Source of the DNA: Chitinophagaceae bacterium
GTDB taxonomy: Bacteria > Bacteroidota > Bacteroidia > Chitinophagales > Chitinophagaceae
DNA: 64,000 nucleotides
Assembly (NCBI GenBank): GCA_013140985.1
Contig: JABFRU010000048.1
Location: forward strand, 1 to 64,000
Direction of reading: 5' to 3'
The notes beneath the pieces are model-generated. The model was not told the DNA's origin. It saw only the letters and a list, made by a program, of their open reading frames with translations, and made no database searches. The position numbers were made by a program, and so were the translations under genes. Positions 30,546-41,117 of the stretch are shown piece after piece (within the stretch, counting starts at the first letter, position 1; each line of letters starts with the position of its first letter).

Positions 30546-31694
30546 TTACAACGTTGCCTTGAATTGTGCAACTGTCTCCTTTTCCCATTCATAGAAATTT
30601 TCAGGGTCTATCCAGAATTGTTTCCATGAATTATTTAAAAGCTCACATACCTTACCTTTTGATTCAGGAGAAATAATGTCACAGCCAATTTGTTTTGTAC
30701 CAACAAGGCAAAATTCTGCTGCTAATTTAAGTAATTTGTCAGGCACAGCTACTGAAAATCCAGTGGGCTTTTTATGGTCAACGATTACTTTAAATTCCTC
30801 CCATTTAGCCTGAATTTCTTTTTTAACTTCTTTAAAACCCACTAATTCCAAACCATGCAAAATTGCTTTCATTCTTGCTTCTCCAGGCGGATGCGATGAT
30901 TTTTGAAATGTTGGAATTTTATACACTTCCCAGGACATTTTGGTGCACATATGAATGTTTGACCATATAAATGCAGGGCCTAAAGTAAAAGTTGCAAATA
31001 AATCACAGAACAGTTCAACTGACCACTTTTCAAGCCATGATTCTTTCCAGACATGAATAGAATCAAATTCTGACTGGTTTGTTTTATTAAGTTCCCGTCT
31101 TTTTATTTCATCATCAAAATACTTTCTTACTTCAACATTGAACAAACCCAGATTATTCTGCATTGCATCCAGCTTTGGGTTTTCTAAATATAACAACGGA
31201 TGACCCAATTCATGATATATATCAGGGATATGCAGAACAAATTCTGATTCCAAAAGAGGTATGCAAATAAGATTGTAGTCCGGATAAATGTGATAATACT
31301 TCTGAGACAAGCATGACGCTACTGGTGTTTGTAACGGATAATTGATTTCCTGACAAATTTGATATACAAGTTTATTTACAAACTCATCGTCAGCAGCTTT
31401 CCTGCTCATGGCGGCTATTACCACATTTTCAATATCAGACAACCGGCCAGAAAGCTGCTTAAATTTCGAAAACTTTTGTCTTATACTCTTTGGGTCGTTA
31501 TAATCATCATCATTATACAAATAATCAAGTTCAGCTATTATTCGCTCTATCTCCCTATTTGCTATTGTTGCTAACGATGGGAAATATACTCCAAGTTCTC
31601 TTGCACCGGGTATTTTTGACATTAATACCCAGCCCTTAGCTATCGCTTCTTTGATTGCTCCGTTAATATAACTTCTCATAGTTTTAATCGCCAA
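30546..31694 (-). CDS. HExxH zinc metallopeptidase associated with Argonaute
   Basis: 382 residues, cytosolic (no signal or membrane segment). The helix DIYHELGHPLLY carries H161, E162 and H165. About 60 residues later, VELFCDLFATFTLGPAF offers E227 and D231 as third zinc ligand and partner, a gluzincin-like layout. The C-terminal 130 residues are helical and unassigned. The frame overlaps the upstream small gene by 11 bp, and a second ATG at 31679 is also possible. It is thus translationally coupled into the Argonaute operon. I know of no described Argonaute system with such a peptidase, so a proteolytic effector or regulator-cleaving role is proposed only as inference. Confidence 0.65.
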   Translation of the reverse strand: MAIKTMRSYINGAIKEAIAKGWVLMSKIPGARELGVYFPSLATIANREIERIIAELDYLYNDDDYNDPKSIRQKFSKFKQLSGRLSDIENVVIAAMSRKAADDEFVNKLVYQICQEINYPLQTPVASCLSQKYYHIYPDYNLICIPLLESEFVLHIPDIYHELGHPLLYLENPKLDAMQNNLGLFNVEVRKYFDDEIKRRELNKTNQSEFDSIHVWKESWLEKWSVELFCDLFATFTLGPAFIWSNIHMCTKMSWEVYKIPTFQKSSHPPGEARMKAILHGLELVGFKEVKKEIQAKWEEFKVIVDHKKPTGFSVAVPDKLLKLAAEFCLVGTKQIGCDIISPESKGKVCELLNNSWKQFWIDPENFYEWEKETVAQFKATL

Positions 31695-32049
31695 TTATCT
31701 TTGCTAAAACTTCACTGTTTTCAACATCTAAGGCTTCTGTAATTAATTCAATTTTAGGTATAACAGTTTCTGTGTCTTTGTTCTTAATATCCTGAATTAA
31801 TGTGTTTAAGAAAACATCAGGTTTTTTGTTGAAATTTCGTAGTTCCCGTTCAATTATACTTGACAACATTTGAAACTGAGGTTCAGCATTATTTACATCA
31901 GTAAGTTTGGACACAAAATCAATTAGTTGCTCCTGCCGTGCATCTGTAATTTCCGGATGTATTTTGGCCTTCACAATAAAATCATTTAGTATATCCAGGT
32001 ATTTACTGGTAAGGCGAAAAGTATTTGTATTTATACCAATATTGCTCAT
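31684..32049 (-). CDS. small helical protein between Argonaute and metallopeptidase
   Basis: 121 residues from the ATG at 32049; the frame extends to 32115, inside the Argonaute gene. It is entirely helical and acidic (about 90 residues of alternating hydrophobic and charged positions), with no Cys. Unrecognised. It lies 16 bp after the Argonaute stop codon and overlaps the peptidase start. Its size and position suggest an adaptor or inhibitor linking the two. Confidence 0.5.
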   Translation of the reverse strand: MSNIGINTNTFRLTSKYLDILNDFIVKAKIHPEITDARQEQLIDFVSKLTDVNNAEPQFQMLSSIIERELRNFNKKPDVFLNTLIQDIKNKDTETVIPKIELITEALDVENSEVLAKIIGD

Positions 32050-32065
32050 AGTTGTATGTTTAGCG

Positions 32066-34513
32066 TTATGAATGAATGGTTTTAAGAACATCAAGTGCTT
32101 CCAAATCAAAATCACTGCCCAGTATATTAATTCTTCGGTCGGTTATCTTAATAGTTAATGGGTATCTGGAGCAATCATCTGGTTTTGTATAAGCCAGGCA
32201 TGACAGGTAATAAATGTCTTCTATAATATGCTCTATATCCATATTCCCAATTGGGTATTTAATATACAATGGATTAGAGCTTCCGTTATGTTTGAACTCT
32301 CTGCCTGTTGTACAAAGAAAAGCTTCCCGATTATTTATCTTTATCCAAGAGCCAATCTCTGGATTTAACACATAGCCATCGTCTTCTTCATTATGCAATA
32401 CATCATATTCTTTAAGCACTTCAAAAAGTCTTAATTGAAGTATTGAATGTTTAGGTAGCTCAACAATATTTACAGATACATCGTCCGGGAGTATGCCTTT
32501 TTCTTTCAACAATTGAATAGCTTTAAATATTCCATTCCGTTCAACTGAAAATAGCTTCCCATCCCGATGGATAACTATCTTTTTTAACAGGTTTGTTGTA
32601 TTATTCTTCTGGACAGTAATGTATCTGACAAGCATTTTAATAATCTGTCCCTCAGATAAACGCTCCTTATTTTTTGACTTATCGAATTTGGTAAGTATAT
32701 TCTTAGAATACTTGTCAATAAAGGTAAACCCAGCGATGTGTTTTTTTACGTCAATGCCAATGGTCAAATCTGCATGTAACGGGGTGTTTAAAACATAAGG
32801 CCATCTTTCATTGTTAAGAAGCACCTGATTAATTGCAACACCTTTAACATAGCCATCGTATTTGCCTTTCAACTCTCTCCTGATAACGTAGCCCTTCTGC
32901 CCATTGTTTTCGGTATATAAGAAACATTCTTCCAAAGTATCACTGTGCATGATGCTTGCCGTAATGTTATATTCTTCGAGGCACTCCGATACTACTAATG
33001 CGGCTAAATCATCATGCTGGCGTTGTTCTTTTTCTACTCCTGATGGAAGCATAATGAGGGCATACCCGCCGCTATTCTTCTTAATGGTTTCTTCCATCTT
33101 CTGTAAAATTTCAAATCCAATTGCCACAGCATTCCTCTTATTGCGGTTGTCATAAGTAATTACAATGGGATTCCATCCATCTTCGGTAGGATGAGTTTTA
33201 TTTACCTGCGACCTTAAATGACCAAGAAAATGTTTCTCATTACCAAACATGTTGTAAACAGTCTGGGGGACAAGGTAATACTGTGTTTCAAATATTGCGT
33301 TTGTATAAAAACCTGCGCTATCATCAAATAACAATCCCTTTCGTCTTTTACCAAGGTCTTCCAGAAATGTATGAATCGAGTTTTCAGAATTCCGTACCGA
33401 TAATGACACATCATTTCCAAATAAAAAGTCAGGAGTCTGAAATTTCTTCTTTTCAACAGTTATTGGTTGAGTGCCTACCTGCAATTTGATTTTACCATAC
33501 ATCAGCCTTCTGAAAAAATTATTATGAATTATTCGAATCAGTCTTCTTCTTGGAAAAGGATTAATAATAGATTTGTGATGTATTTTTTGCACTACGGCAT
33601 CTTCAGTATCATATACCTTATAGCAAAGTGCTGCCACTGCTGCTCTTTCCTGTCCATCATTTGTTCTGTATAACAACACTGATGCATTATCTGGTAAGTT
33701 TGCTACCTCTGGCGGCATAGATGGACCAAATTTGTCCTGAATATCCTGTAGCAGTGTTACCACTTTGCCGTCAGTTTGCCGTGTAAACTTATAGGTAGAA
33801 ACTGTTAAGTCACTAAGCTCTATTGGGCGTATTTCGTATCTGGTAACGCCGTACTGATACATATAATGTGATTTACTTACTCTTTGCGATTTGAACTCGT
33901 TTCTGGACAAACGGGCATTAACGGGATAAAGCGATATATATTTCTTTGTAATGTCAATCTCAAAACCAAATCCTTTAGTTGGTAATTCAGTTACCCTTGA
34001 ATAAAAACCGGTGTATATACCTACCGGATTTCTTTGCTCTTTGGCAATTACATTGAAAAATCCATCGCCGGAGCCGGGTTGCCAAAGACCTTCATTCTTT
34101 GTGAGTTCCGATTGACTATCGAATTGCAAAAACCTTAGAATTACTTTTTTAGTTTCCTCATCATAATTGACAAAATCCAGCTTTATAGGGCTGTCAGTCT
34201 TTTTAAAATAGACAACATCACCGTGTTTTACAGTGTATTCATCGGGTACTCTGTTTGTAATATCTTCATCGGCCCTTATAACGAGGTAAGGCTTTTTATC
34301 TTGAGTAACAACAGTAACCGGATGCCTGAGCTTATAAGCCAGGCTTTTGATTATGTATTGAATATTAATGTCAAAATCGTCATTAGCATCATCATCAGCT
34401 TTTGACTCTTTCAATCCAATTATTTCATACAAAAAATAATCAGCAGATAGTTGACTGCAATTTTCAATTTTGAAAATGTTCGTCTCGTACTGTGTATTTA
34501 CTGGTTGTTTCAT
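32066..34513 (-). CDS. long prokaryotic Argonaute with intact DEDD catalytic tetrad
   Basis: 815 residues from ATG 34513 (the frame opens to 34564). The C-terminal PIWI domain (about 580-815) has D588 in LTIGIDVKKH, E621 in RLSEGQ (glutamate finger), D651 in IVIHRDGK, and D792 in YPLTIKITDRR, the place of the last catalytic residue in YAD/YAH motifs. Spacings (33, 30, 141) resemble those of active long Argonautes. The N-terminal 400 residues should hold N and PAZ-like domains, and the MID lies about 440-580. It should cut nucleic acid guided by a small DNA or RNA. MID phosphate-pocket residues are not canonical (see findings). It overlaps the upstream nuclease gene by 50 bp. Some Bacteroidota long Argonautes have been reported to use DNA guides against RNA; which applies here is unknown. 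Confidence 0.85.
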   Translation of the reverse strand: MKQPVNTQYETNIFKIENCSQLSADYFLYEIIGLKESKADDDANDDFDINIQYIIKSLAYKLRHPVTVVTQDKKPYLVIRADEDITNRVPDEYTVKHGDVVYFKKTDSPIKLDFVNYDEETKKVILRFLQFDSQSELTKNEGLWQPGSGDGFFNVIAKEQRNPVGIYTGFYSRVTELPTKGFGFEIDITKKYISLYPVNARLSRNEFKSQRVSKSHYMYQYGVTRYEIRPIELSDLTVSTYKFTRQTDGKVVTLLQDIQDKFGPSMPPEVANLPDNASVLLYRTNDGQERAAVAALCYKVYDTEDAVVQKIHHKSIINPFPRRRLIRIIHNNFFRRLMYGKIKLQVGTQPITVEKKKFQTPDFLFGNDVSLSVRNSENSIHTFLEDLGKRRKGLLFDDSAGFYTNAIFETQYYLVPQTVYNMFGNEKHFLGHLRSQVNKTHPTEDGWNPIVITYDNRNKRNAVAIGFEILQKMEETIKKNSGGYALIMLPSGVEKEQRQHDDLAALVVSECLEEYNITASIMHSDTLEECFLYTENNGQKGYVIRRELKGKYDGYVKGVAINQVLLNNERWPYVLNTPLHADLTIGIDVKKHIAGFTFIDKYSKNILTKFDKSKNKERLSEGQIIKMLVRYITVQKNNTTNLLKKIVIHRDGKLFSVERNGIFKAIQLLKEKGILPDDVSVNIVELPKHSILQLRLFEVLKEYDVLHNEEDDGYVLNPEIGSWIKINNREAFLCTTGREFKHNGSSNPLYIKYPIGNMDIEHIIEDIYYLSCLAYTKPDDCSRYPLTIKITDRRINILGSDFDLEALDVLKTIHS

Positions 34514-35456
34514 AACTATTTGTTTTACATATTTTCTGAAATGAACATTTTTGACAATGTTCAATATAATTTGTTGTAGAAAAATCGTCTGCTTTCAATT
34601 GATTGTACTTTTTGTTAGCACCAGCCATATGCATCCTGATAATTGCAGAAGACATATTCTCTCCAAAAGCTTCTATTTTTTCATCTGTTACATAATAATC
34701 CCGTTTTATTCGGTCTTTATGAAGCAATTGATATTCGGTCAGTTTATAATCATGGATTTTCCATTTGGAAACATTGGGAAGAAAATCTGCATGAGGCTTT
34801 ATGGTAGCTACTTTATAAAGAGCCACTGCATAGGCAATTAATTGTTCATCGTATGAAGCTGTTCCGTATGTATGTACTTTCCAGTCAAAAATATGTGGTG
34901 GACTATCATCAAAAAAAGCAATAAAATCGGGAATCGCTTTTACACTAAACCGGTCAAAATTATAAATCAATGGCCGCTGGCTAATTACATATTTGGAAGA
35001 TTTCAGGTAATCAATAAAGTCTTTATCATCAAGAATATTTGTAAGGGCAGTAACAATATCATCTTTTGCATGATTGATTTCCTCGTCAGAAATGCCCTCA
35101 CCAAATTCACATTCAATAAAAGCATTAAAAGCTGGATTATTTGTAAGTACAGCATCCGGCTCCCGATACTTTTGAGAAGTAGCATACTCTAATTGTGTAT
35201 CAAACATGGCCATTGCCTGCTCAATAAAGTAATCTTTTTTTACAGGATATCTATTGTTGATTGCAAGTACGAGAAATTTACTCAGTATGTTATCCACTAT
35301 TGTACCCCGCCAGGCATGAACTGTCTGCAACTTTGAAAGAAGTGTTACTTCCCGTCGAAACAAATCATTCTTCACACGGCTGTCCGCTACAATATTCTTG
35401 TAGAACCACAGCCTTTCACACTGAACAAATTGCTTATATCCGGTAACTGAAATCAT
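34464..35456 (-). CDS. Cas4/AddB-like Fe-S PD-(D/E)XK nuclease
   Basis: 330 residues. Nuclease motifs: H47 in VHAWRGTIVDNIL, D177 in AIPDFIAF, D191-W-K193 in IFDWKVH, and Q205 in DEQLIAYA (RecB motif order H-D-(D/E)xK-QxxxY). Four Cys residues, C13 near the start and C301-x2-C304-x5-C310 near the end, match the [4Fe-4S] cluster layout of Cas4 and AddB nucleases. It could process guides, chew invading DNA or feed the Argonaute. Start and stop overlap: it begins 4 bp before the end of the XRE gene and runs 50 bp into the Argonaute gene. Confidence 0.8.
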   Translation of the reverse strand: MISVTGYKQFVQCERLWFYKNIVADSRVKNDLFRREVTLLSKLQTVHAWRGTIVDNILSKFLVLAINNRYPVKKDYFIEQAMAMFDTQLEYATSQKYREPDAVLTNNPAFNAFIECEFGEGISDEEINHAKDDIVTALTNILDDKDFIDYLKSSKYVISQRPLIYNFDRFSVKAIPDFIAFFDDSPPHIFDWKVHTYGTASYDEQLIAYAVALYKVATIKPHADFLPNVSKWKIHDYKLTEYQLLHKDRIKRDYYVTDEKIEAFGENMSSAIIRMHMAGANKKYNQLKADDFSTTNYIEHCQKCSFQKICKTNSYETTSKYTVRDEHFQN

Positions 35457-35797
35457 TTTTTCCGATTTCTGATAAACTTTAAATAATTAAGTAATTCCAA
35501 CTCTTCATCATCTGAAATATCACCCACCCTGTAAGCGATAGATATTTTACCGGATTCACTTTTCACCTTTTCTTTACGTTCGGTAACTGGATAGCCTACT
35601 TTCTCCATAAGCAAATCATAGCTTACACCATATATTTCAGAAAGCTTGTGAAGCGTTAACGGAGAAGGCTGTTTTACTTTTCCTGATTCGAGTTGACTTA
35701 AATAAGCATTCGAAACATCGGCCTGTTTCTCTACTTCTCTCAGGGTCATATTTTTTGCTTCCCTCAAAGCCCTGAAGTAGTCGCCATAATTTTGCAT
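35453..35797 (-). CDS. XRE-family regulator of the Argonaute operon
   Basis: 114 residues from ATG 35797. Residues 1-65 are a Cro/C1-type helix-turn-helix (GDYFRALREAKNMTLREVEKQADVSNAYLSQLESGKVKQPS region). The C-terminal tail has an acidic end. It is the first gene of the operon and is preceded by three palindromic sites that also contain the promoter boxes, so it very likely represses its own operon. The overlap with the nuclease gene (ATGA) couples translation. Confidence 0.85.
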   Translation of the reverse strand: MQNYGDYFRALREAKNMTLREVEKQADVSNAYLSQLESGKVKQPSPLTLHKLSEIYGVSYDLLMEKVGYPVTERKEKVKSESGKISIAYRVGDISDDEELELLNYLKFIRNRKK

Positions 35798-35816
35798 ACA
35801 ATTTAAATTTATCGGT

Positions 35817-35901
35817 TTGCTAAATATTGCAAGCAAATATATAGATTGTTGCTTGATATTGCAAGCAAATATATAGATTGTTGCTTGATATTGCAAGCAT
35901 T
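35817..35901 (-). promoter_or_regulatory. tandem 32-bp repeat with palindromic operators and nested promoters
   Basis: A 32-bp unit is repeated twice exactly from 35824 and begins a third time at 35888. Each period contains the palindrome TTGCTTG-N6-CAAGCAA: 35849-35868 is perfect, 35881-35900 has one mismatch and 35817-35836 is imperfect. On the minus strand each also carries TATATTTG (35834-35841 and 35866-35873), matching the Bacteroidota -7 box, with TTG about 20 bases upstream. Operators overlapping promoters in this way suit an XRE repressor. Confidence 0.75.
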
Positions 35902-35982
35902 ATTTTTAAGCGCTTACTGATTTTTCTACTCTGTTCGACTTAAATAATTGATAATTAACTGATTGTAATTATTTTAGGAAAG

Positions 35983-37731
35983 CTATGCCTCATGGTTGCC
36001 AATAATATTGGAAAGAAAATCTCTGGCAAATTTTTCAGCAGCAAGAAAATCACTTAGCTTTTGCTCAAGCAGCTTCTTTAATTCAGCATTAAACCTGAAT
36101 AACAACTTAAAATTAATACTGCCTTTTGTTTTAGAATACTCTGCTCTTACTACTGGCATAATCCTTTTGTCAATTTCTTCCAGATAATAGGAGGATGCTG
36201 CTGAAATTCTTGCTTCGAGTAGTTGGTATTTACCCTCTTGGTTAAGTTTGCAGATGCTGCTTATTTCTTCTGTAAATTTAAGCGATGTGGTAGTACAGTG
36301 GCTAATTCTCCCGAGTGTGTCCGCAATTTCAGCATAGTTATTTAGCAAACTACCATTTTGAGAAAAAAATGCAGATAACTCTACCCAGCTAAAATAATCA
36401 CATAGTTTTCGTTCTGCAAATAATGCCTGTTCATTTGAAAGAATTTCAATCAGTTTATCCTCCGATAATGAATCTGGCAAAGCACCGGCAGCAAAAGCTG
36501 AGTTATTCATAATTTGAAGATTAACCTTAGAACTTAAAGATAGTCCCTGTAAAGATTTTAATCGGCTTAAAGCAACATAAGCCTGTCCCGGAACAAAAAC
36601 ATCTTCTAAATCCAAAACTGCATTTTCAAACGTTAATCCCTGGCTCTTATGAATGGTAATTGCCCAGGCTAACCTAACAGGGAACTGCCTGAACGTACCT
36701 ACGACTTCAGGGTTTACAGAATTTGTTGATTCGTTAAATACATATTTTATTTTTGACCAAACTTCTTTTTGAATTTGTATTGTGGCACCATCATCAAGCA
36801 ATATAGATAATTCTTCAGGCACAATAGCTTTTACCAGGCCTGTCTTTCCGTTGTAATATTTTTTATCTTTTCCTTTGTCATTACGCAACAACATTATTCT
36901 TGCCCCAATTTTTAATTTTAAACAGTTTTCAGTAGGAAAAGATACTTCATCAAAGTCACCATCAACCTCCGCCCATAGAAATTCCTCCTGAGTTGCTAAA
37001 ATTCTAAGCCCATTTTCATTTATTGAGTCAACTTTGGCATTATGAGTTGTAAGAATAACGGGACTTTTCTCATTTACAACATCGGGCTTGTAACAAGTGT
37101 TTATTAAATCAACTTCTCTTTGGGAACAATTACCCGTACGGACTTGATTAAGTAATTGAATAAAATTATCGTCTGTCTGGCGATAAACTTGTGTAAGTTC
37201 GAGATATACGGGTGGTGCTATTTTGATTGATAGGGCGTTTAAGAAATTAATTCCCTTGTAATATTGTTTTATCTGTCTCCATTCTTCATCTGCTATGATT
37301 GGTGAAAGTTGACAAAGGTCTCCCACAAACAGAACCTGAACATCGCCAAATGGCACATCTTCCTTTTTTCTCGTTGTCCTTAAAATATAATCAATAGCAT
37401 CTAATGTATCTGCTCTCAACATTGATACTTCATCAATAATAAGTAATTCAAGTTCTTTAATTAGCTTCTTTTTATTACTGTCTATAGAGGTTCCCAGTTG
37501 GCTTTTTCCTGGCAGAAAAGGGCCAAGTGGCAGGTTAAAAAACGAGTGAATGGTAACTCCATTTGCATTGATAGCTGCAATGCCGGTGGGTGCAACAACT
37601 ATACATTTTTTATAGATATTTTGACGAAGTGCGTTTAGAAATGTTGTTTTGCCGGTACCAGCTTTGCCAGTAAGAAAAAGCGACTTATCTGTTGTGGAAA
37701 TAAAATTGAGAGTAAGTTTAATAATATCCAT
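35983..37731 (-). CDS. PIF1-like SF1 DNA helicase
   Basis: 582 residues. Motif I FLTGKAGTGKTTF (Walker A 22-29), motif Ia VVAPTGIAAINANGVTIHSFF, motif II LLIIDEVSMLRADT, and the later VALSRLKSLQGLSLSS and AWAITIHKSQGLTFENAVLDL motifs of PIF1/RecD helicases are present. It unwinds DNA 5' to 3' by family rule. The last 150 residues are unassigned. It lies upstream of the Argonaute operon on the same strand but is separated from it by about 190 bp and a promoter, so it may serve the mobile element rather than the defence operon. Confidence 0.8.
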   Translation of the reverse strand: MDIIKLTLNFISTTDKSLFLTGKAGTGKTTFLNALRQNIYKKCIVVAPTGIAAINANGVTIHSFFNLPLGPFLPGKSQLGTSIDSNKKKLIKELELLIIDEVSMLRADTLDAIDYILRTTRKKEDVPFGDVQVLFVGDLCQLSPIIADEEWRQIKQYYKGINFLNALSIKIAPPVYLELTQVYRQTDDNFIQLLNQVRTGNCSQREVDLINTCYKPDVVNEKSPVILTTHNAKVDSINENGLRILATQEEFLWAEVDGDFDEVSFPTENCLKLKIGARIMLLRNDKGKDKKYYNGKTGLVKAIVPEELSILLDDGATIQIQKEVWSKIKYVFNESTNSVNPEVVGTFRQFPVRLAWAITIHKSQGLTFENAVLDLEDVFVPGQAYVALSRLKSLQGLSLSSKVNLQIMNNSAFAAGALPDSLSEDKLIEILSNEQALFAERKLCDYFSWVELSAFFSQNGSLLNNYAEIADTLGRISHCTTTSLKFTEEISSICKLNQEGKYQLLEARISAASSYYLEEIDKRIMPVVRAEYSKTKGSINFKLLFRFNAELKKLLEQKLSDFLAAEKFARDFLSNIIGNHEA

Positions 37732-37867: not shown

Positions 37868-39829
37868 TCAAGTTTCTTTCTCCGCCTTCAACCTCCCCAC
37901 TTCTTCCCCAATCAACCGCTTAATATCCATCTTTACCTGGTAATAATTGTCCAGCACCTGTTGCTGAGTAACACTAGAAACCGCAGGAATGTCCCGGTAG
38001 TTACTTACTTCTGCATTTAGTTTCTCATGGTCATTGATAATTTCGGAATGAAACATTTTGAGTTTGATTTTTTCCAACGGGTCGTCGGCAACCATGCCGA
38101 CAAATTCACCGGAAGAAAGTGCGGCAATCTTACTGGCGGGTATGGCTGCATCCAATTGTTTGCTGTGGCTGATGGACGTATCGGTACGATTGATGGAAAC
38201 ACTCTGCCTGTCCTGCATTATTTTACCAAAACGTTCACTCAGCAGTTTGCTGGTTTCTCCCATCACCTGTCCGCTGATAATATTGCCAGTGATGTTTACA
38301 ATTACATCGGCCTGCTCACGACCATAATCTTTTTTAAGCTGGCTAAAATCCTGCATGGCTAAAGTGGTGGCAACTTTATTACTTCTGGCTGTAGCAATCA
38401 GGCTGTCAATATTGTTGAAATAAATGGTGGGAAATTCATCAAACACCAAACTGCACTTTTGCATCCCCTTTTTGTTTACCTGCCTTACTAATCTTGAAAC
38501 ATAAAGAGATAACACAGCACCATAAATTTGCTGCTTCTCCGGGTTATTACCTACGCAAACAATTTTTGGATGCTTGGGGTTGTTAATATCCAATGTAAAA
38601 TCGTTGCCAGATAACACCCAATACAATTGCGGTGCTGCCAACCTTGCCATACCAATTTTAGCAGAGGCTACCTGTCCTTCCAATTGTTCCATTGCATCGT
38701 TTTGGTAAGCGGTTATGAAGGGGTTTACCAGTACTTCAATCTCAGGTTGTGTATTTAATACCGGAAACAATTCATCATACTCTGCCTGCATCAGTTCAAT
38801 TACATGCGGCAGGGTACAATATTTTCCATCGGCATATTTTCGCAAGAACCAGATAACAGCCGTAACAAAATTGATAGGTGATTCCACAAAGAAATCTCCC
38901 TGCTTATTTATCCATTCCCTGTTTAGCCCTAAAAGAATTGTTCTGGCACTTTCTGTAGCATCGGTAATATCATTCATGCTGTTTGGGTCAAGCGGATTGC
39001 AACGGTGCGATACAGAAAGGTTATCAAAGTTGATTACATAGAAAGATGGTTTTACTGAATAGTTATGTTTATTTTGCTGCAGCCAGTTGTAAACAATGCG
39101 GCTCAAATCATCGTACTTAAAATCATATACAAACATGGCAAAGCCTTTTTCTATGTGCTGTTTAATTACATGCTGAATAACAAACCAGCTCTTACCTGCA
39201 CCTGGGCTTCCAATTACCAGTAACCCCCGAAATGGATTGATGATATTTATCCAGCTTTTTCTAACCCTGCCTTTCAAATTATAACGGGCAGGCAAGTTGA
39301 TGGAATATTCATTGCTGATTAATCGTTCTTCCTGCGGAAAGGTTTCGTTGAGTGAATTGAAAACATCATCACCTAAATTGTAACGAATTAAGCGGCTGAG
39401 TAAATTGCCGCCTGCCAGTATCAGTAAAAACCCAATGCCTGTGGCTGTGATGTAAACTATGGCGACTGTTTGCACATCGTACTGTAGTTTAAAATACAAC
39501 TGGCTTGAAAAATAGAGCAGCAAGCCAATCAGCAAATATGCTGTGATGCTTCTCCAATTTATCTTTTCATCTTTTTTGCCCTGTGCTCCAAATAATGAAA
39601 TAACCAGCAGCCCCAACGCCATAAGTTTTGATGTAAGCTGATTATGAAATAAGCCAGTGTTGGAAATGTTTTTCATCAGCCTGTCAGTGATGGTGCTTGT
39701 AATTTCCCACTGCTCAAAAGCAACGTAACAGCAATAATAAAAATGTAGCAGCAAAATAAAAATACTGGCAAATCTTGTCAGGTCAACTATCTTCCGCAAC
39801 CCCTGTTCATTTTCTCCTGTGTGTGACAT
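37868..39829 (-). CDS. type IV coupling protein (TraG/VirD4-like, MobC of Bacteroidota)
   Basis: 653 residues. Four transmembrane helices (about 21-38, 68-82, 97-113, 122-141) precede a cytosolic ATPase with Walker A GSPGAGKS (207-214), SLVFDEFPTIYFNN-type Walker B, and conserved TLAMQDFSQLKKDYG. It brings relaxase-bound DNA to a transfer channel. It lies 16 bp after the relaxase gene. Confidence 0.85.
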   Translation of the reverse strand: MSHTGENEQGLRKIVDLTRFASIFILLLHFYYCCYVAFEQWEITSTITDRLMKNISNTGLFHNQLTSKLMALGLLVISLFGAQGKKDEKINWRSITAYLLIGLLLYFSSQLYFKLQYDVQTVAIVYITATGIGFLLILAGGNLLSRLIRYNLGDDVFNSLNETFPQEERLISNEYSINLPARYNLKGRVRKSWINIINPFRGLLVIGSPGAGKSWFVIQHVIKQHIEKGFAMFVYDFKYDDLSRIVYNWLQQNKHNYSVKPSFYVINFDNLSVSHRCNPLDPNSMNDITDATESARTILLGLNREWINKQGDFFVESPINFVTAVIWFLRKYADGKYCTLPHVIELMQAEYDELFPVLNTQPEIEVLVNPFITAYQNDAMEQLEGQVASAKIGMARLAAPQLYWVLSGNDFTLDINNPKHPKIVCVGNNPEKQQIYGAVLSLYVSRLVRQVNKKGMQKCSLVFDEFPTIYFNNIDSLIATARSNKVATTLAMQDFSQLKKDYGREQADVIVNITGNIISGQVMGETSKLLSERFGKIMQDRQSVSINRTDTSISHSKQLDAAIPASKIAALSSGEFVGMVADDPLEKIKLKMFHSEIINDHEKLNAEVSNYRDIPAVSSVTQQQVLDNYYQVKMDIKRLIGEEVGRLKAEKET

Positions 39830-39845
39830 ATCATCGTTTTACTAA

Positions 39846-41117
39846 TTACAAATTTTGTTTCTTCTTTTTACGTTTCTTTTTTAACAGGCTGTTGGGTATG
39901 TTATCGTATTGCTCTTTGGTAGATAGCAGCACATCTAACGGGCTCTCCCTTTTTGTTGTGAGAGGAATTGTTTTATCCTGTTGTTTTTGCTGACTCCTTT
40001 CGTTGTGAATGGAACCACCGGCTCTGCTGTCCTTTGTTTCATCTTGATTAAGCGATTTTTCAGTGCCAGCCGCTAACCTGCTTTGTAATGCCGCAGCACT
40101 ATAACCTTTACCTAAATCACTACCATTAAAAACAACCTTGTTTTGATTGTCAACAAAAGTGATTCCGAACAACCTGCCTTCAGTATTTTGGCGAAGCACC
40201 GTGTAAATATTTTTCTGTTTCAATTGCTCCGTTAATTCTTGTATTGAAGAAGGCGATTGTGAAAGGCAATCATCCAGTTTGATTTTTACAAATGGTTTAA
40301 GGGATTCTTTTGCAGCTTCATTAGCAGCAAATTTCTTTTCAAGATTAGCTAAAATTGGTTTGCAACCGATAGAACTTGCTTTGATAGGTACACCTACTTT
40401 ATTTCCGGCTGCATCCAATATGCGATAAACCAATCCACGGTTTTTAAAAACCCTGCCTTCTTCTTTACCTCTGTCCGCAACTACATTGAATTGTTTTAAA
40501 GCCGCATTAAATTCAGGTAAGGAAGTAAACTTGTACTGACTGTAAACTGCTCCAACAATATTTGAGATACTGCGTTTAGTTTCCGACTTTCCATAAACGG
40601 CTTTTTCAACATCAACCGGTTTGATGCCAGGCTTTGGTAGTTGCTGCTGCCTTTCTGCTTTTACTAAGCCATACAATTGCTCAATTTCCTTTCTTGCCTT
40701 TTCAGATTGGTTTCTGCCGATGTTGTGGGTATTGATACGCCTACCATCTGCTTTAATAGTAGTGCTTACAATGTGAATGTGTGGATGCCCGGCATCTTCA
40801 TGTTTGTAAACGAGGTAAGGCTGCTGTCCAAACCCAATCATTTCCATATAGGCAGATGCAATTTGTAATAACTTACTTTCAGCCAGCTTTTCTGATGGGT
40901 CAAAGTTGAGTGATACATGCAGGGTTTTTGTGGTGGCTCTTTCATTCAAACTATTCAGCCTTTCAAAACCTGCCAGTTTCTGATAAAAGTTCATGTCTTT
41001 TGCATCTTTGAGATAATTGGCGGCATGTAAGCAAACTGCTTTGCTCTTTTGAACTTTCTTTTCATTATAGTTCAAAGCTGCTTCAATACTTTTCGGTGTG
41101 GCTATTTTTGCAACCAT
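39846..41117 (-). CDS. MobB-type relaxase
   Basis: 423 residues. The N-terminal relaxase domain has the metal-binding histidines H111, H113 and H115 in GHPHIHIVSTTI and a nearby YLVYKHED, as in Bacteroidota mobilization relaxases. A YF/Tyr nucleophile should lie in the first 50 residues (NYNEKK at 16-21 or NFYQK at 43-47). It nicks oriT and pilots the strand. The C-terminus is basic and ends in a Lys/Arg run. It overlaps the MobA-like gene by 16 bp. Confidence 0.85.
   Translation of the reverse strand: MVAKIATPKSIEAALNYNEKKVQKSKAVCLHAANYLKDAKDMNFYQKLAGFERLNSLNERATTKTLHVSLNFDPSEKLAESKLLQIASAYMEMIGFGQQPYLVYKHEDAGHPHIHIVSTTIKADGRRINTHNIGRNQSEKARKEIEQLYGLVKAERQQQLPKPGIKPVDVEKAVYGKSETKRSISNIVGAVYSQYKFTSLPEFNAALKQFNVVADRGKEEGRVFKNRGLVYRILDAAGNKVGVPIKASSIGCKPILANLEKKFAANEAAKESLKPFVKIKLDDCLSQSPSSIQELTEQLKQKNIYTVLRQNTEGRLFGITFVDNQNKVVFNGSDLGKGYSAAALQSRLAAGTEKSLNQDETKDSRAGGSIHNERSQQKQQDKTIPLTTKRESPLDVLLSTKEQYDNIPNSLLKKKRKKKKQNL

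Follow-up and report, generated by a model that had tools for sequence, protein, structure and literature searches.

A predicted autoregulatory operator-promoter array with a 32 bp period upstream of a five-gene Argonaute operon in a Chitinophagaceae bacterium

Argonautes of the PliAgo group are DNA-guided and RNA-targeting, and their genes are accompanied by those of a Cas4-like nuclease and of a putative HTH regulator (Lisitskaya et al. 2022, PMC9360449; here, as for the other papers cited, statements refer to the available part of the text). In that part the regulator is merely named: no operator is mentioned, and the terms HTH, metalloprotease and peptidase are absent. BPAN systems, comprised of a long-B pAgo and a nuclease, are defined by a catalytically inactive Argonaute (PMC10620215). 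Among characterised repressors, RptR acts on a restriction-modification defence island through zero to five sites per promoter, two being needed; these sites are 6 bp palindromes in 9 bp repeats, two of which overlap the -10 box (PMC12255303). DdrO and CapH are repressors that are removed by a metallopeptidase (PMC10904395). Promoters of B. fragilis carry TTTG near -33 and TAnnTTTG at -7, the -33 motif not being found in Flavobacterium johnsoniae according to the available part of the same source (PMC7366714), and the -7 box spans positions -12 to -5 (PMC9723704). No description of the operator of Argonaute-XRE-Cas4-like operons was found in the open literature searched, outside which lie most subscription papers and every bioRxiv preprint.

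The 64,000 nt stretch of Chitinophagaceae DNA analysed here, hereafter the window, contains an operon with the same HTH regulator, Cas4-like nuclease and DEDD Argonaute as the D-R pAgo operons of the PliAgo group (PMC9360449). Its genes, in the order XRE, Cas4-like PD-(D/E)XK nuclease, Argonaute, g4 and g5, have overlapping ends, and the array described below is placed in the 185 bp gap between a Pif1-like helicase gene and the XRE gene (Table 1). The XRE protein was modelled by AlphaFold with a mean pLDDT of 79.5; a longer, TTG-initiated XRE reading frame that reaches 35896, through the repeats, is probably an artefact. PADLOC labels the nuclease Aga_Cas4-like_Nuc (E 8.6e-116). The closest solved relative of the Argonaute is chain 7r8k (E 1.8e-105), taken to be the PliAgo of PMC9360449 because residues D563, K565, E592, D626 and D762, placed by hand and in part verified, land on 7r8k with an offset of two. 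All five are identical in the window Argonaute, and the 7r8k alignment places the DEDD tetrad, with the group's lysine near the first D, in the motifs IGIDVK, KER, HRDG and IKITD. With a gene for a Cas4-like nuclease immediately preceding that for the pAgo, and an HTH regulator in the operon, the locus fits the PliAgo group, and DNA-guided RNA cleavage would be predicted from group membership. Two other identities were considered and rejected. The DEDD residues argue against BPAN, and a C protein of a restriction-modification system would require adjacent R and M genes, where a Pfam scan gave no methyltransferase match among the operon proteins.

Table 1. Features of the array and its surroundings in window coordinates. 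The (-) strand is the coding direction of the operon, on which the sites are read; the promoter spacing of P1 and P2 is taken as in relatives.
Feature	Position	Strand	Remarks
Operator a, distal (putative)	35881..35900	(-)	ATGCTTGCAATATCAAGCAA; identical to the upstream site of L012, the nearest two-copy relative
Operator b, middle (putative)	35849..35868	(-)	TTGCTTGCAATATCAAGCAA; sole perfect palindrome in the array
Operator c, proximal (putative)	35817..35836	(-)	TTGCTTGCAATATTTAGCAA; identical to the downstream site of L012
P1 -7 box (predicted)	35866..35873	(-)	TATATTTG; predicted -33 TTG at 35894-35896 in operator a, 20 bp spacer
P2 -7 box (predicted)	35834..35841	(-)	TATATTTG; predicted -33 TTG at 35862-35864 in operator b, 20 bp spacer
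XRE/HTH_3 protein, 114 aa, presumed autorepressor	35453..35797	(-)	Pfam HTH_3, E 4e-14
Cas4-like PD-(D/E)XK nuclease	34464..35456	(-)	PDDEXK_1, E 2.9e-9; overlaps XRE stop
Argonaute, PliAgo-related	32066..34513	(-)	PADLOC label pAgo_II; aligned DEDD residues
g4, small protein, 143 aa by longest ORF	31684..32115	(-)	Overlaps Argonaute stop
g5, HExxH protein, 382 aa	30546..31694	(-)	HELGH; candidate zinc peptidase
Pif1-like helicase gene	35983-37731	(-)	

Genes for a coupling protein (YWFCY/T4SS) and a relaxase adjoin the operon at 37868-41117 on the (-) strand, and the same coupling protein recurs in L012-L014, which suggests carriage of the operon by a mobilisable element.

The array consists of three repeats starting at 35817, 35849 and 35881, start-to-start distances of 32 and 32 bp, and thus has the exact period that an earlier note on this DNA had described. 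The arms of TTGCTTG-N6-CAAGCAA pair at 7/7 positions in operator b, 6/7 in operator a and 5/7 in operator c, in agreement with the same note's grading of the palindromes as one perfect, one with a single mismatch and one weaker. When the sequence was compared with itself at a lag of 32, 44 matches were found in a 45 nt stretch of the array, the top such stretch in the whole window; at least 43 matches over 45 nt were seen in 0/5000 dinucleotide shuffles of the 188 bases 35795-35982. The palindromes alone are weaker evidence than this repetition: among 5000 shuffles of the same bases, a perfect 7-6-7 palindrome arose in 242, two or more good palindromes in 976, and two good palindromes 32 bp apart in 23. 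At up to three mismatches, the sole occurrence of the pair pattern in the organism's own genome (3.86 Mb, 83 contigs) is the array itself. A regulon elsewhere in the genome was considered and rejected on the evidence of this pair pattern and of the one-mismatch single sites: at up to two mismatches the single-site pattern has 29 matches and its reversed control 12, but outside the array the only one-mismatch places, L003 and L004, have by eye no TAnnTTTG box against the site.

As had also been claimed, the sites are nested with promoter boxes facing the XRE-headed operon, except that a TATATTTG box does not occur in every period: there are two, and the distal period is without one. With the -7 box placed at -12 to -5, transcription is predicted to start at ~35861 from P1 and ~35829 from P2, each 2 nt from the earlier predictions of 35859 and 35827. 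A generic sigma-70 scan marks both promoter spots as TTGCAA-17-TATATT, 32 bp apart; it gave 5 hits against a mean of 2.0 in shuffles. The inner TTG of the upstream site, with its 20 bp spacer, may fit the Bacteroidota -33 element, a reading made unsure by the lack of a -33 motif in F. johnsoniae (as above) and by the TCG found at this place in relative L013. Each 32 bp unit would thus combine an operator with a promoter, an architecture that would account for the period.

A scan of genomes with the XRE protein gave 26 loci, of which L036 and L037, partial HTH matches at 36-37% identity with no site at one mismatch, were left out. Nuclease and Argonaute lie behind the XRE gene in 21 of the 24 loci; the exceptions are L015, cut by a contig end, L026, comprised of XRE, g4 and g5, and L032, comprised of XRE and Argonaute. 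Residues S29, N30, A31, S34, Q35, E37, K40 and K42-P46 of the HTH are invariant in 24 XRE proteins. With the organism's own genome included each time, 2 of 195 genomes at family level have a match to the XRE protein, 4 of 396 at order level one to the XRE profile (giving L079, L081 and L082) and 5 of 395 at phylum level one to the nuclease, the three weakest nuclease matches (L007-L009, 22-25% identity) being nuclease-Argonaute pairs without an XRE match. All five genes have homologues, in unchanged order, on a plasmid of the species that RslAgo comes from, Runella slithyformis (L042), where the Argonaute is 45% identical to that of the window and the array has the same two sites as in other relatives. 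L011 and L015 are the same contig, as, apparently, are L006 and L024. In L006 the span searched for the nuclease match at 1501-2430 (43% identity) is interrupted by two TAA stops in frame, probably an alignment-end effect, and L024 has an open nuclease frame of 309 aa.

For 25 loci of Bacteroidota and Balneolaceae (L012-L031, L035, L042, L079, L081 and L082), sites matching TTGCT-N10-AGCAA were counted in the DNA upstream of the XRE gene. Two sites exactly 32 bp apart, each with at most two mismatches of ten, are present in 24/25; the remaining locus, L017, has the downstream site and a decayed upstream site at unchanged spacing. Three sites in register occur in 0/25; a weak additional site in L019 lies at an unrelated spacing. 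In all 25, exactly 20 bp separate the inner TTG (TCG in L013) from a TAnnTTTG box whose final TTG is the start of the downstream site. De-duplication at 85% dropped L028, L030, L031, L079, L081 and L082 and left 20 sequences including the window, in which mean information is 1.35 bits for site 1, 1.35 for the box and 1.40 for site 2; the flanks have 0.20 (upstream) and 0.27 (downstream), and the gap 0.39. On this alignment the array is a clear phylogenetic footprint, retained along with the XRE subfamily across many genera. The palindrome is imperfect in the majority of relatives, where TTAGCAA or a similar sequence closes one or both sites. The site goes with XRE, since L026 keeps both XRE and array without nuclease and Argonaute directly behind, and L007-L009, nuclease-Argonaute loci in which no XRE relative was detected, have no site within 1.5 kb upstream. 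What recurs, then, is a palindromic site that lies upstream of the XRE protein's own gene, overlaps promoter elements and is conserved with the protein. Separately, the pair pattern gave only two hits other than the array in 395 class-level genomes, L040 and L041, each at about 1501-1552 and directly upstream of similar AAA ATPase genes (GARGxGKTTLLLQ ... LDEVHKYPNWSxEIK); these may belong to a further family that regulates itself through a similar site, or be chance matches in AT-rich sequence.

Four distant relatives carry a single site. This is the case in L032-L034, from other phyla at 48-52% identity, and in a Rhizobium plasmid (L044) of the same operon layout, in which g4 homology is not detectable at E 1e-3. 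In all four, the only ones of this kind examined, the inner TTG of the site begins a sigma-70 -35 element, TTGACA or TTGACT, at 17 bp from a -10-like hexamer (TATTGT, TATGGT, TATTCT or CATTCT). Since single sites begin the -35 element outside Bacteroidota, the site appears to carry the upstream promoter element in both sigma codes, -33/-7 in Bacteroidota and -35 elsewhere. Among viral contigs, queries P0001 and P0004 gave no relatives, and the 43 XRE relatives obtained with profile A1 are more distant (35-57% identity); the site pair is absent from all of them, and three have a single TGCT-N10-AGCA site within 250 bases. Of 20 plasmid records matched, 13 were examined (H7, H8, H10, H13-H15 and H20 were left out), and six of these, L046 and L049-L053, have no site at two mismatches. 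The viral relatives without the pair and the plasmid relatives without a site suggest that the link between operator and XRE is limited to this subfamily.

The nuclease-Argonaute operon is present in two of the 13 plasmid records, Runella L042 and Rhizobium L044. In the other 11 the XRE gene, 32-47% identical in its product, is always followed by an HExxH gene, annotated as ImmA/IrrE in ten and as hypothetical in L046. A ThiF gene adjoins the pair in nine of the 11 (L043, L045-L048, L050, L051, L053 and L054), with a multiubiquitin annotated in eight of these nine. Site-like palindromes are found at two mismatches in several: three in L054, at 29 and 28 bp, two at 29 bp in L045, two at 30 bp in L048 and one in L043, while L047 has two sites 58 bp apart with a weaker one (three mismatches) between them. 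These arrangements differ from the array of the window in their spacing, and no Argonaute lies in the stretches examined. XRE-HExxH is possibly a regulator module common to Argonaute and ubiquitin-like systems.

The array, its spacing, its conservation, its 32 bp difference from the nearest relative and its membership of the operon are read from sequence, and on that footing it very probably represents an autoregulatory operator-promoter array of the five-gene Argonaute operon, for which XRE binding, repression, promoter use and cooperativity are predicted. The XRE protein, presumably as a dimer, would recognise TTGCTTG-N6-YWAGCAA. The ancestral array would have comprised two sites around one promoter, 32 bp or about three helical turns apart, such that bound dimers would share one face of the DNA; this spacing would be fixed by the -33/-7 geometry of the promoter and by the repressor alike. 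The sites would supply promoter bases, with the inner TTG of the upstream copy serving as -33 element and the opening TTG of the downstream copy completing the -7 box TAnnTTTG, so that repressor and RNA polymerase would compete for the same bases. Expression of the operon would then lead to accumulation of XRE and to shut-off of the operon. In kind this is an ordinary operator-promoter overlap, for which RptR is the best comparison: it is likewise an autorepressor of a defence operon with repeated palindromes over the promoter (PMC12255303), whereas the sites of the window are 20 bp long, have a 32 bp period and each hold promoter bases, with XRE binding presumed.

Two other functions of the array were weighed. 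One is that the palindromes act as RNA, in the form of a leader hairpin, attenuator or terminator, or as iterons or recombination sites. They can fold, and one terminator-like stem is predicted on the + strand at 35882-35899, yet the proximal site spans the predicted transcription start, such that P2 transcripts would hold only part of a site. No Pfam replication protein was found among ten neighbouring proteins scanned, and the site pair has a single occurrence in the genome; together with the persistence of single sites as -35 overlaps in other phyla and the lack of a site at L007-L009, this leaves such functions extremely improbable. The other is that XRE activates at the upstream site and represses at the downstream one, delaying the onset of a harmful nuclease in a new host. 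The C proteins of restriction systems activate at an upstream site and repress at a downstream site. The presence of two sites of one palindrome before the regulator gene, the appearance of C.BclI and C.AhdI among the weak Foldseek matches of XRE, and the adjoining relaxase and coupling-protein genes are in keeping with this model. However, the upstream site covers the predicted -33 itself and does not lie upstream of it, and a protein bound there should therefore block the polymerase; moreover, the single site covers the -35 element in four distant relatives, and L007-L009, which have nuclease and Argonaute without this XRE, lack the site. Activation of this kind is accordingly rated improbable.

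If XRE is an autorepressor, g5 is a candidate for its derepressor, because XRE resembles DdrO and CapH, repressors removed by a metallopeptidase. The best solved matches of the XRE profile include DdrO, SinR, 7t5u (CapH) and 7t8i (ICEBs1 ImmR), and a Foldseek search with its fold lists C.BclI, C.AhdI, CapH, DdrO and P22 c2, only one match, 9a7f, falling below E 0.001. A g5 homologue was found in 22 of 23 genomes searched (that of L017 was left out), the one without a match being that of L015, and in 22/22 it follows the XRE gene in the same orientation, as a piece at a contig end in L026 and L035. Across 16 aligned g5 proteins, HExxH, W220, E227, C230, D231 and H268 do not vary, and the family signature reads HExxH ... 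W..E.FCD ... SHPP..ARM. The pattern of HExxH, ExxxD and HPP is reminiscent of peptidase family M48. It is possible, if somewhat doubtful, that the conserved g5 lifts repression by cleaving XRE or sequestering it, in the way that IrrE/PprI acts on DdrO. The DdrO-PprI/IrrE and CapH-CapP pairs (structures 6rnz and 7t5u) have an XRE repressor similar in sequence or fold, but differ in their peptidase: g5 has no Pfam match, and comparison with nine ImmA/IrrE-type proteins detected no homology (hhalign probability 0.9%, blastp hits at chance level only). A single-sequence fold model of g5 is poor, with a mean pLDDT of 42.3.

The third copy looks like a recent exact 32 bp duplication. L012, a MAG of a Chitinophagales bacterium with an XRE protein 100% identical over 113 residues, aligns to the window at 97.5% identity over 6371 columns with 32 gap columns in total, all of which form one gap inside the array in a close alignment of 360 bases; this supports the earlier suggestion that the near-identical units arose by recent duplication. 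The L012 sites, ATGCTTGCAATATCAAGCAA upstream and TTGCTTGCAATATTTAGCAA downstream, have the 12 bp word TGCTTGCAATAT in common. Operator b is a hybrid, with a left half like operator c and a right half like operator a, as would be expected from unequal exchange or a slip. As other relatives have two copies, the simple reading is a gain in the window lineage, in which exchange or slippage at the common word would have duplicated a 32 bp unit and, in one step, yielded both the perfectly palindromic hybrid site and a second complete promoter.

Whether the extra unit matters is a separate question from autoregulation. A third copy without regulatory meaning, either a neutral tandem duplication or an assembly error, would be compatible with a two-site autoregulator, and the chances of its being so appear evenly balanced. 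Three in-register copies are known from one assembly, where an error is possible, and from 0/25 relatives, and the two spacers are identical, leaving little time for selection. The duplication is exactly in phase, with intact sites and a complete second promoter, which speaks for a function, but the 12 bp common word would alone give an in-phase duplication without selection. The earlier note had held that copy number may vary and tune the response. It does differ among relatives, with two as the strongly kept state and three in the window, but frequent variation is not seen. Because operator and promoter share bases within one 32 bp unit, the array might act as an evolvable dial, in which slippage adds or removes a matched operator and promoter in one step and the number of units tunes the basal level and repression of the Argonaute defence operon between strains, with proteins unchanged; with a single three-copy case to draw on, we consider this unlikely.

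As far as the searches show, what is new is the operator itself, together with its strict pairing at 32 bp in step with the promoter, its link to the sigma code and the duplication in register. The array provides a concrete regulatory site, open to testing, for Argonaute operons of a group in which the regulator has so far, in the available part of the literature, been merely named (PMC9360449). It also illustrates how operator and promoter elements can be fused under two sigma codes, such that tandem duplication alone could produce one more working unit.
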